From Haloarcula sp. CBA1127 (GTDB lineage: Archaea > Halobacteriota > Halobacteria > Halobacteriales > Haloarculaceae): a stretch of 64,000 nt of DNA. The position numbers and the translations under genes were made by a program. Under the pieces are notes generated by a model, which saw only the letters and a list, made by a program, of their open reading frames with translations, made no database searches and had not been told where the DNA came from. Location of the stretch: NCBI RefSeq assembly GCF_001485575.1, contig NZ_BCNB01000006.1, forward strand, positions 1,922,001-1,986,000, in the 5' to 3' direction. Positions 48,004-59,078 of this stretch are shown here, in pieces (position 1 is the first letter of the stretch; the number at the start of each line of letters is the position of its first letter).

Positions 48004-48056
48004 GATTTTTTATACATCCCTTCCCACCTTTCGCAATAGGCACCGCACTGGTGCCG

Positions 48057-48080
48057 CACCACCCCACCCCCCACCCCCAC
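48057..48080 (-). repeat. G-rich tract on the minus strand, possible G-quadruplex
   Basis: Read on the minus strand the tract is four G-runs, GGGGG, GGGGGG, GGGG and GG, each separated by single T. It lies in noncoding DNA after the branched element and a further hairpin, GGCACC-GCACT-GGTGCC (48039-48055). Confidence 0.5.
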
Positions 48081-48253
48081 ATTCCTTACCTTTCCACTTC
48101 CTGTGAGTCGTTGGCTCCTACACCGACAGGGACCCGATAGCTCATAGCCCACCTCTACGATGTTGCAGTAATTCTGGTCAGCCGTCGGGTCTGATTTGTC
48201 AGTGTGGCACATCCGAAGCCGGCTGCATCCGCTCACAACGAACCGAAGGAAAA

Positions 48254-48355
48254 TGGAAGGGGCGGGAGTCGAACCACGCGGAGCCCTTTGCGGGGTAACC
48301 ACCAACCGATTCTGGCATGTTGGTCGGTAGCGCTCTACCACTGAGCCACCCTTCC
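48254..48355 (-). tRNA. Anomalous tRNA-like gene, isotype not assigned
   Basis: On the minus strand, a 7-bp acceptor (GGAAGGG/CCCTTCC) and a consensus D-arm (TGGCTCAGTGGTAGAGC) are clear. The T-loop TTCGACT and discriminator A follow. An attractive promoter TATTATAGG lies about 15-25 bases upstream, and TTTT follows the 3' end. But it is 102 bases long; the anticodon arm (CTACC with GGTGG) encloses 22 bases with no U33-plus-anticodon in a 7-base loop, and a 19-base variable region follows. The T-stem pairs only with a bulged U. It may contain an unusual intron, be a degraded copy, or be a selfish tRNA. No CCA is encoded. Confidence 0.55.
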
Positions 48356-48562
48356 AAGCTACCTATAATACGTTCCTGACAACCAAGTAAGTGATGATTC
48401 CGGGTGTTTCCGTGAGCCGATACCACCAGCATCCCAGTGCGGTTTAGCCGGTCGCCAATCTGTACCTTACTCGCGCCGACGCCCAGAGCGGGACCGGTAT
48501 CGGTCCACGGCCCTTTCTTTTCGGATTCACAACAACTTATTTCGGGCCGGCCGGCGACAGCA

Positions 48563-48889
48563 GTGGACGTGAGCTACACGAAAGTCAACTACACCGACGT
48601 GGAACCAGTCGCGGATGCAATGCACTTTCTCCGAGACCCGCTGGACTGTGAGCAGGTCGGCGTCACTGTACTGGACTGTGATGCCGGCTGGACCGGCAAA
48701 CCGCACGATCATGCCGACGAAGGTCACGAGGAGGTGTACGTCCTCGTTGAGGGGACAGCCACCGTCGAGGTTGACGGCGAAAGCGTGTCTCTGGAAGCGG
48801 GCGACGCAATCAAGCTCCCGCCGAAGGCAGAACGGACAATCCACAACGGCGACACCGAGAGCACGCTCGTCCTCGTCGGCGCGCCCTGA
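48563..48889 (+). CDS. Cupin-domain protein
   Basis: The protein has 108 residues; start GTG 48563 (a second GTG follows two codons later). The cupin motif is present: GKPHDHADEGHEEVYVLVEG (G-x5-H-x-H-x3,4-E-x6-G type) and the second part, GDAIKLPPKAERTIHNGD. The three His and one Glu would bind a metal. It is a single-domain cupin; the reaction cannot be assigned from sequence. It precedes sdhA, converging. Confidence 0.85.
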   Translation: MDVSYTKVNYTDVEPVADAMHFLRDPLDCEQVGVTVLDCDAGWTGKPHDHADEGHEEVYVLVEGTATVEVDGESVSLEAGDAIKLPPKAERTIHNGDTESTLVLVGAP

Positions 48890-48928: not shown

Positions 48929-50755
48929 TCAGTACGACCGGACCTTCGGTTCGTAGGTCTCTTCGTCGCCTTCGAGGATGACGGGCTTGTAGTACAGCTC
49001 TGGCTGTCCTTCGTTCCAGGCAAGCATCGTGTGCTTGATCCACTCCTCGTCCTTGCGTTCTTGGTGCTCGGCACGCCAGTGTGCGCCGCGGAACTCCTCG
49101 CGGGCGAGCGCGCCGAGCGTGATGGCCTCGGCTACGTCGAGGATGTTCCTGGTCTCGATGGTGTGGATGAGGTCCGTGTTGTAGGTTCGGGACGGGTCTT
49201 CGACGGCGACGTTCTCGTACTCCTTGCGCGCCGACCGGAGGTCCCGAAGGGCCTTCTCAAGGCCGTCCTCGGTCCGGAACACGTTGACGTTCTCCGTCAT
49301 CGTCTCCTGCACGTCCGCGCGGACCTCGGCGTGGTTGATGCCGTCGGACTCGATGAGGGTCTCGATGCGCTGGCGTTCCTGCTCGACGGTGCTTCCGAGC
49401 ACCGCTTTCGGTTCGACGGCGGCCCCGTCGGCGGCGACATCGTCGCTGCTGGCGTCGATTGCGCCGGGGTCGACCGGCGGTTCGACGTCACCGGGCTCGC
49501 TCTTGGCGGAGAGGCCGGTCTGGATTTCGGCGGTCTTCATGTCCTTGCCGGCGGCGTGGTGGCCGGCTCGGGCACCGAACACGAGCAGTTCCGGCAGGGC
49601 GTTGCCCCCGAGTCGGTTCGCGCCGTGCAGCGAAACACACGCAGTTTCGCCGGCCGCGTAGAGGCCATCGATACACGTCTCGCCGTTCTCGTCGCACTCG
49701 ATGCCGCCCATGGCGTAGTGCTGGCCGGGCTTGACCGGCATCGGCTCGTCGAGGCCGTCGACGCCCTCGAAGTCCTCCGCGAGGTGAAGTATGTTCTCAA
49801 GCCGGTCGAGAATGCGCTCCTCGCCGAGGTGGCGCATGTCGAGGTCGACGTACTCGTCTTCGACCCCGCGGCCCTCGTTGACTTCCGTCAGTTCGGCACG
49901 GGCGACCACGTCACGGGAGGCCAGTTCCCCCTCGTTGTTGGCGTAGCCGTGCTCGAACATGAACCGCTCCTCGTCGTCGTTGTAGAGGATGCCACCCTCA
50001 CCACGGACCCCCTCGGAGATGAGGACACCCGTCGATGGCAGCGTTGTCGGGTGGAACTGGATCATCTCCATGTCTTCCATCGGGACGCCGGCGCGGTAGG
50101 CCATCGCACAGCCGTCACCGGTGTTGGCGACGGCATTCGTGGTGTGGTCGAAGGCCTGGCCTAGGCCGCCCGTTGCGAGAATCACGCCGTTGTTGGCCCG
50201 GAAGCCCTGAATCTCGCCGGACTTGATGTCGTAGGCGACACAGCCGTGACAGACGCGGTCCTCGGGGTCGTCGTGGTCGGTGACCGCGAGCTGGGTCACG
50301 TACCACTCGTCGTACACCTCAATGCCGCGCTTGACCGCCTGCTCGTACATCGTGTGCAGGAGGTGGTGCCCGGTCTCGGCACCTGCGTACGTCGTCCGCG
50401 GATAGGAGAGGCCGCCGAACGGGCGCTGAGAGACGCGGCCGTCGTCCTCGCGCGAGAAGGGCATCCCCCAGTGTTCGAGCTGGATGACCTCTTCCGGGGC
50501 GTCCTTGGCGAAGGTGTCGATGGCAGGGGCGTCGCCGAGGTAGTCGGACCCCTTCATCGTGTCGTACGCGTGGAGATCCCAGGAGTCCCCTTCCTGGAGG
50601 GCGGCGTTGATTCCCCCCTCCGCAGCACCTGTGTGGCTCCGAACCGGATGGAGCTTGGTCACGAGGGCAACATCTGCACCCTCTTCGTCCGCTGCAATAG
50701 CCGCCCTGAGGCCAGCGCCACCCGCGCCGACCACGATAACATCGTGTTCGTACAT
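48929..50755 (-). CDS. sdhA: Succinate dehydrogenase flavoprotein subunit
   Basis: The FAD subunit of complex II; oxidises succinate to fumarate. The protein has 608 residues. N-terminal dinucleotide-binding GAGGAG, then HPVRSHTGAAEGGINAAL with the covalent-FAD His; substrate-binding HPTTLP and catalytic Arg region HGANRLGGNALPELL; C-terminal helical domain. It lies on the same strand as sdhCDB, but 2.8 kb away with three opposite-strand genes between. It must have its own promoter; a TTAAG-type element (50800-50806) is about 45 bases upstream. Confidence 0.94.
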   Translation of the reverse strand: MYEHDVIVVGAGGAGLRAAIAADEEGADVALVTKLHPVRSHTGAAEGGINAALQEGDSWDLHAYDTMKGSDYLGDAPAIDTFAKDAPEEVIQLEHWGMPFSREDDGRVSQRPFGGLSYPRTTYAGAETGHHLLHTMYEQAVKRGIEVYDEWYVTQLAVTDHDDPEDRVCHGCVAYDIKSGEIQGFRANNGVILATGGLGQAFDHTTNAVANTGDGCAMAYRAGVPMEDMEMIQFHPTTLPSTGVLISEGVRGEGGILYNDDEERFMFEHGYANNEGELASRDVVARAELTEVNEGRGVEDEYVDLDMRHLGEERILDRLENILHLAEDFEGVDGLDEPMPVKPGQHYAMGGIECDENGETCIDGLYAAGETACVSLHGANRLGGNALPELLVFGARAGHHAAGKDMKTAEIQTGLSAKSEPGDVEPPVDPGAIDASSDDVAADGAAVEPKAVLGSTVEQERQRIETLIESDGINHAEVRADVQETMTENVNVFRTEDGLEKALRDLRSARKEYENVAVEDPSRTYNTDLIHTIETRNILDVAEAITLGALAREEFRGAHWRAEHQERKDEEWIKHTMLAWNEGQPELYYKPVILEGDEETYEPKVRSY

Positions 50756-58520: not shown

Positions 58521-59078
58521 TTAGCCGTCAGCGATGATAGGGTCAGGATTTGGTGAGGCGACACCGGCAGCGCCGACGGGCTCCGCCGGATTGCCGACGA
58601 CTGTTGTTTCCGGGGCCACGTCATCGACGACGACAGCGCCAGCGCCGACGGACGCGTTCTCTCCAACGGTGATCGGCCCCATTATCGAGGCATCAGCGCC
58701 GATGGTCGCGCCGTCCTCGACCGTCGGGTGGCGCTTTTCGCGGCGCATGGACGTCCCGCCGAGGGTGACACCGTGGTACAAGAGCACGTCGTCGCCGATT
58801 TCGGCCGTCTCGCCGATGACGATGCCCATCCCGTGGTCGATGAACACGCGGTCGCCGATCTCCGCGGCGGGATGTATCTCGACGCCGGTCAGGAACCGCG
58901 TGACGTGGGAGATGAGTCTGGCGAGTAACTTCCGGTCGTTCGTCCAGAGCCAGTGGGCGACGCGATAGGCCCAGATCGCGTGCAGGCCGGGGTACGTGAG
59001 CGCGACCTCCATCGCGCTGGTCGCCGCCGGGTCCTTTGTGAGTGCTGTACGAATATCCGTTTTCAGTCGGTCAAACAT
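58521..59078 (-). CDS. cysE: Serine O-acetyltransferase
   Basis: Forms O-acetyl-serine from serine and acetyl-CoA for cysteine synthesis. The protein has 185 residues from [17 protein letters not shown] (ATG 59078); an ATG nine codons upstream is also in frame. The hexapeptide repeat core has [44 protein letters not shown] with the catalytic His and the substrate Asp of CysE. Length is short and lacks the large bacterial N-terminal helical domain. The upstream gap contains a TATA-like element. Confidence 0.93.

Follow-up and report, generated by a model that had tools for sequence, protein, structure and literature searches.

A conserved and very probably non-decoding tRNA-like RNA gene in Haloarcula and other Halobacteria

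The window analyzed here, a stretch of 64,000 nucleotides from Haloarcula sp. CBA1127 (contig NZ_BCNB01000006.1, positions 1,922,001 to 1,986,000), carries a tRNA-like gene of 102 nt (N73 = A) at positions 48254-48355 on the minus strand. A match to RF00005 in Rfam cmscan (39.6 bits at a gathering score of 29, E 5.8e-6) places the gene at exactly the coordinates given in the initial annotation, and the covariance model R1 built for the family scores it at 111.9 bits. ARAGORN, run on the window, did not call it. Among the 44 RF00005 matches in the genome it is the lowest-scoring, the remaining 43 being ordinary tRNAs; genes for Trp, elongator Met, Gln-CTG and Pro-CGG tRNAs are absent from the 44, probably because RF00005 missed some intron-bearing genes. 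The only other Rfam matches near the gene at a permissive threshold were to SAM-IV and gntR-DTE, both under their gathering scores. On the 5' side of the gene lie a cupin gene on the opposite strand (48437-48889, plus strand) and sdhA, encoding the succinate dehydrogenase flavoprotein (48929-50755, minus strand; Pfam PF00890/PF02910).

The predicted fold of the RNA, encoded throughout on the minus strand, combines the upper half of a cloverleaf, with the D/T elbow residues in place, with an unusual lower domain. The acceptor stem pairs a 5' strand GGAAGGG (48349-48355) with a 3' strand CCCUUCC (48255-48261) over 7 bp, and the D-arm reads GCUC-AGUGGUA-GAGC (48332-48346). The place of the anticodon arm is taken by a closed hairpin of 10 bp with a 14-nt loop AACAUGCCAGAAUC (48298-48331), followed by a small variable-arm hairpin, CCC-CGCAA-GGG (48284-48294). 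In the T-arm, GCG-U-GG-UUCGACU-CC-CGC (48262-48279), one U at 48276 is bulged from the stem. The anticodon arm of a decoding tRNA (5-bp stem, 7-nt loop, U33 and anticodon) and an unbulged 5-bp T-stem are thus both lacking. Much of this had been read from the letters before: the initial annotation rightly recognized a good acceptor, D-arm and T-loop, and both the 22 bases enclosed in the anticodon arm and the variable region of about 19 bases are present in the sequence, as is the T-stem bulge it had described. Its statement that no anticodon can be read was borne out as well, as the gene fails a test for an anticodon stem of at least four pairs with U33.

The promoter and terminator that had been proposed for the gene also have counterparts. 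A TATA-like box, TTACTTGG, lies 28-35 nt upstream (48383-48390, minus strand) and coincides with an AT-rich peak in the homologues: in 86 unique upstream regions A+T peaks between -34 and -27, reaching 91% at -30, and G occupies -4 in 65%. This upstream pattern fits an archaeal promoter with a short leader. A run of TTTT directly after the gene (48250-48253, minus strand) may act as a terminator, and an excess of T at +1 to +4 is likewise seen over 85 downstream regions.

Conservation of the upper half was assessed on 78 unique genes, delimited with a pattern that fixed the T-loop and the 3' strand, and likewise the 3' strand of the acceptor stem, and left the 5' strand free. The acceptor stem GGAAGGG/CCCUUCC is found in 76 of the 78, the 5' strand being identical in the same number; as the covariance model was seeded by exact 24-mer matches, this 5' invariance is partly a sampling effect, and the matches found later by the model vary only slightly. 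Changes to the GCUC-N7-GAGC of the D-arm are few, and UUCRA is retained in the T-loop. In two loci of one genus (L154 and L155, family f1) the D-arm is divergent and shortened (GGAAGGGCATGCGTGG... and GGAAGGGTGCTCGTGG...), with the T-arm and acceptor stem unchanged. In all 78 genes the T-stem sets six bases against five, and this is an independent finding because the delimiting pattern left the 5' strand free. The form GCG-U-GG/CCCGC accounts for 67 genes, GUG-U-GG/CCCAC for two and GUGG-C-G/CCCAC for nine; with GCG/CGC replaced by GUG/CAC the pairing is compensated, and a bulge is retained even where it has moved.

Pairs of sequences from the genus are on average 99.7% and 97.6% identical over the two segments of the upper half; the mean falls to 74.7% in the lower domain and to 44% in the sequence immediately 3' of the gene. 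An ordinary tRNA-Glu gene served as control: compared along its whole length throughout the class, its identity is for the most part 87-100%, and lower where an intron splits the match. The upper half is therefore conserved like a working tRNA, with the decoding end released. Comparison of the homologues points firmly to strong purifying selection on a tRNA-type upper half made up of acceptor stem, D-arm and a T-loop with the usual elbow residues.

The lower domain behaves differently. Whole genes measure 78-143 nt, of which the lower domain takes up from 27 to about 92 nt of changing sequence, folding as a hairpin to which a second is often added (mean z -2.5 against dinucleotide shuffles, with 59 of 66 genes below -1). 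Among seven unique 102-nt sequences of Haloarcula clade 1, the changes in the stem all preserve pairing. Some loops, such as UUCG (L141), UUUG (L164) and CUC (L161), cannot hold an anticodon, and an anticodon arm of at least 4 bp with U33 is possible in only one of the 78 genes, even with a one-base shift allowed. When run on the homologues, ARAGORN proposes anticodons that bear no relation to one another (Arg, Val, Cys, Gly, Thr, Pro) or fails to propose any; annotation tools overlook the gene or assign it a random anticodon. Many homologues also have a class-II-like variable hairpin, which is missing from several of the smallest forms. Taken over the family, these sequences clearly indicate that the lower domain is under no constraint towards an anticodon. 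The closed lower hairpin and the T-stem bulge, flagged initially as oddities, are a conserved hallmark of a widespread family.

A DNA search of 32 Haloarcula genomes found the gene in 30, with one copy in each. Exact matches to GAAGGGTGGCTCAGTGGTAGAGCG among named genomes extended the range to Halomicroarcula, Halomicrobium, Halorientalis, Halobellus, Halogeometricum, Haloprofundus, Halostella and Halalkalicoccus, besides Haloarcula itself. The covariance model, trained on 26 sequences and applied with a cut-off of E <= 1e-6, has matches in 185 of 391 Halobacteria genomes and 46 of 86 genera. All 40 model matches that were inspected share the same upper half, including 12 from family f3, to which most of the lowest scores belong. 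Members of the tRNA-like family score about 48 bits or more with the model. The highest scores of ordinary tRNAs are 31 bits in two Haloarcula genomes without the gene and 44 bits in other parts of the phylum, so that the margin at the bottom end is narrow. A few of the lowest scorers counted among the 185 may be misassigned, and further members may have been lost to the strict filters. Candidate matches outside Halobacteria, in families f15 and f16 (41-44 bits), proved on inspection of 13 loci to be ordinary Leu, Ser, Ala and similar tRNAs, and the tRNA-like family is therefore shown only in Halobacteria. A search of plasmids gave a single weak match, which is a real second copy in Halorientalis, located on plasmid pHOS100 (L177, record 58771-58860) about 600 nt upstream of orc1/cdc6. 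Since conservation is class-wide, a chance origin of the window gene is excluded. The gene has been cleanly lost in two Haloarcula species and is therefore dispensable.

Non-decoding tRNA-like RNAs are a known kind, and the RNA described here is a new family within it; it fits none of the known members compared below. A description of this RNA was not found in the open-licence literature searched, which is no proof of novelty. Like canonical class II Ser and Leu tRNAs (RF00005), the family has an acceptor stem, a D- and T-arm layout and, in many members, a long variable arm; unlike them it has no anticodon loop, a bulged T-stem and an unconstrained lower half. In Bacillus cereus, the pseudo-tRNA tRNA-Other is a small RNA acting outside translation, encoded at an integration-prone locus (PMC3399842). 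The two would be alike as tRNA-like small RNAs with a role other than translation at an integration-prone locus, whereas tRNA-Other carries an anticodon, that of Trp, and is found in some Bacilli, and the present family has no anticodon and is widespread in an archaeal class. The tmRNA known from bacteria and some organelles (PMC4131195) has a tRNA-like domain that similarly retains the acceptor and T-arm and has lost the anticodon arm. In contrast to tmRNA, the haloarchaeal RNA has no mRNA-like tag domain, nor room for one in 78-143 nt, and ARAGORN detected no tmRNA in the window. YrlA, a Y RNA of bacteria (PMC7790460), resembles our RNA as a non-coding RNA that has a tRNA-like domain and no decoding role. 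Y RNAs, however, work with Ro60-type (TROVE) proteins, and the genome of the window has none. The distribution of TROVE proteins in Haloarcula does not track that of the RNA either: of the four genomes out of 32 that encode one, G006 lacks the RNA. In G006, 23 tRNA genes called by ARAGORN adjoin the gene for the Ro60-like protein on a secondary contig (C3, about 239-242 kb, L182).

That the locus is a conserved non-decoding tRNA-like RNA gene is very probable. As to what the RNA does, the balance of the evidence tips slightly towards a tRNA mimic that does not decode, is encoded by a gene standing on its own in about half of the Halobacteria sampled, and acts by binding a tRNA-reading protein. 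The RNA would be transcribed, trimmed by RNase P and tRNase Z and folded into an L shape, in which the lower hairpin may serve as a structural cap. The T-stem is the contact site of EF1A/EF-Tu on tRNA, and the loss of the anticodon together with the T-stem bulge could keep the RNA off aEF1A and the ribosome. It would then act in trans, bound by a protein that recognizes tRNA through its elbow and acceptor-T stack. Putative partners are a maturation or modification enzyme, a nuclease or a synthetase, for which the RNA may be a decoy, a regulator or a scaffold. The initial annotation's suggestion of a regulatory tRNA fits if the term is taken broadly, for a tRNA-like RNA that does not decode. 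A tRNA-shaped RNA kept class-wide without its decoding end amounts to a natural experiment on other uses of the tRNA fold, and its role is directly testable, as several carriers among the Haloarcula species are in culture.

An aminoacyl-tRNA synthetase could make use of the invariant acceptor stem just as well. In an alternative reading the RNA would donate amino acids outside the ribosome: a synthetase indifferent to the anticodon would charge it, and the amino acid would pass to a lipid, a small molecule or a peptide. An intact acceptor stem and elbow would suit such a role, and a bulged T-stem would plausibly keep the charged RNA off the elongation factor; the long, class-II-like variable hairpin of many lineages suggests an enzyme of the SerRS or LeuRS type. 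Several of the smallest forms, however, lack that hairpin, and no candidate acceptor enzyme adjoins the gene. Moreover, the discriminator base is A in 46, G in 30, C in one and T in one of the 78 unique genes and differs even within Halorientalis, a variability that argues against a fixed aminoacylation identity. We consider such a donor rather unlikely. The broader proposal, that the RNA is charged with an amino acid class-wide yet takes no part in decoding, serving instead as a dedicated amino-acid carrier outside the ribosome or within an archaeal ribosome-rescue system, seems to us a quite doubtful one.

The position of the gene raises the question of an action in cis. It lies 3' of sdhA and on the same strand in 22 distinct loci outside Haloarcula, in families f1, f3, f4, f7 and f9, and sdhA is accordingly its conserved upstream neighbour. 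In nine of these loci the distance to the end of sdhA is 53-170 nt, and in the others it is within about 4 kb. The RNA could therefore be a tRNA-shaped end to the sdh transcript, at which cleavage by RNase P and tRNase Z would fix the 3' end of the sdh mRNA. A precedent is the t-element of Haloferax volcanii, a structure resembling a tRNA and located ahead of 5S rRNA (Hoelzle et al., 2008, 2012, as cited in PMC4326828), which, as far as the citing paper describes it, is likewise a tRNA-like element of a haloarchaeon and a substrate of tRNA-processing enzymes. On the same account the t-element belongs to a longer precursor RNA, whereas the genes of the present family, conserved class-wide, would stand alone, to judge from their own TATA-like box. 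In Haloarcula, the cupin gene on the opposite strand also intervenes between sdhA and the RNA gene, and in many other lineages the gene is found beside unrelated genes, the plasmid copy near orc1 among them. A cis-acting processing signal is therefore improbable, and the trans-acting mimic is retained as the preferred reading.

In some Haloarcula, the region downstream of the gene holds partial copies of its 3' end, as is seen at tRNA integration sites. A near-palindromic element of about 95 nt lies within about 250 nt downstream (L017, L019-L021, L023, L024, L026, L027), and its 3' arm repeats the T-loop of the gene and, in several cases, also the acceptor end. One genome has as many as three exact copies of the 3' end. 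Relatives of the element are found elsewhere, one of them about 170 nt after a tRNA-Ser gene in the genome of the window, and the elements may be left over from integration events or constitute a small mobile repeat. These copies and the loss of the gene in two species would agree with a degenerate tRNA, as was initially considered, or with an integration-site remnant devoid of RNA function. Both strands of the stems are under purifying selection throughout the class, and this, together with the conserved position of the promoter and the conserved synteny, speaks strongly against decay, which we regard as very unlikely.

An ordinary tRNA with a small hidden intron, spliced to a normal anticodon arm, is scarcely credible: archaeal tRNA introns do exist, and one ordinary Arg tRNA of this genome has an intron of 30 nt, but a strict bulge-helix-bulge was found in none of the 78 lower-domain MFE folds, the homologues offer no consistent anticodon, and the smallest forms, at 78-82 nt, are too short for an intron. 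Haloviruses can carry tRNAs, but an origin of the gene in a provirus, as had also been proposed, can be given next to no weight, since neither 50,697 phage records nor viral contigs hold a match to it, and its chromosomal synteny with sdhA is conserved.

A further conserved element was observed at 48037-48101 of the window, between the tRNA-like gene and a cobT-like gene, and recurs in many related Haloarcula loci. Read on the minus strand, it consists of a purine- and G-rich run (GGAAGTGGAAAGG..GGGGGTGGGGGGTGGGG) followed by the palindrome GGCACC-AGTGC-GGTGCC.
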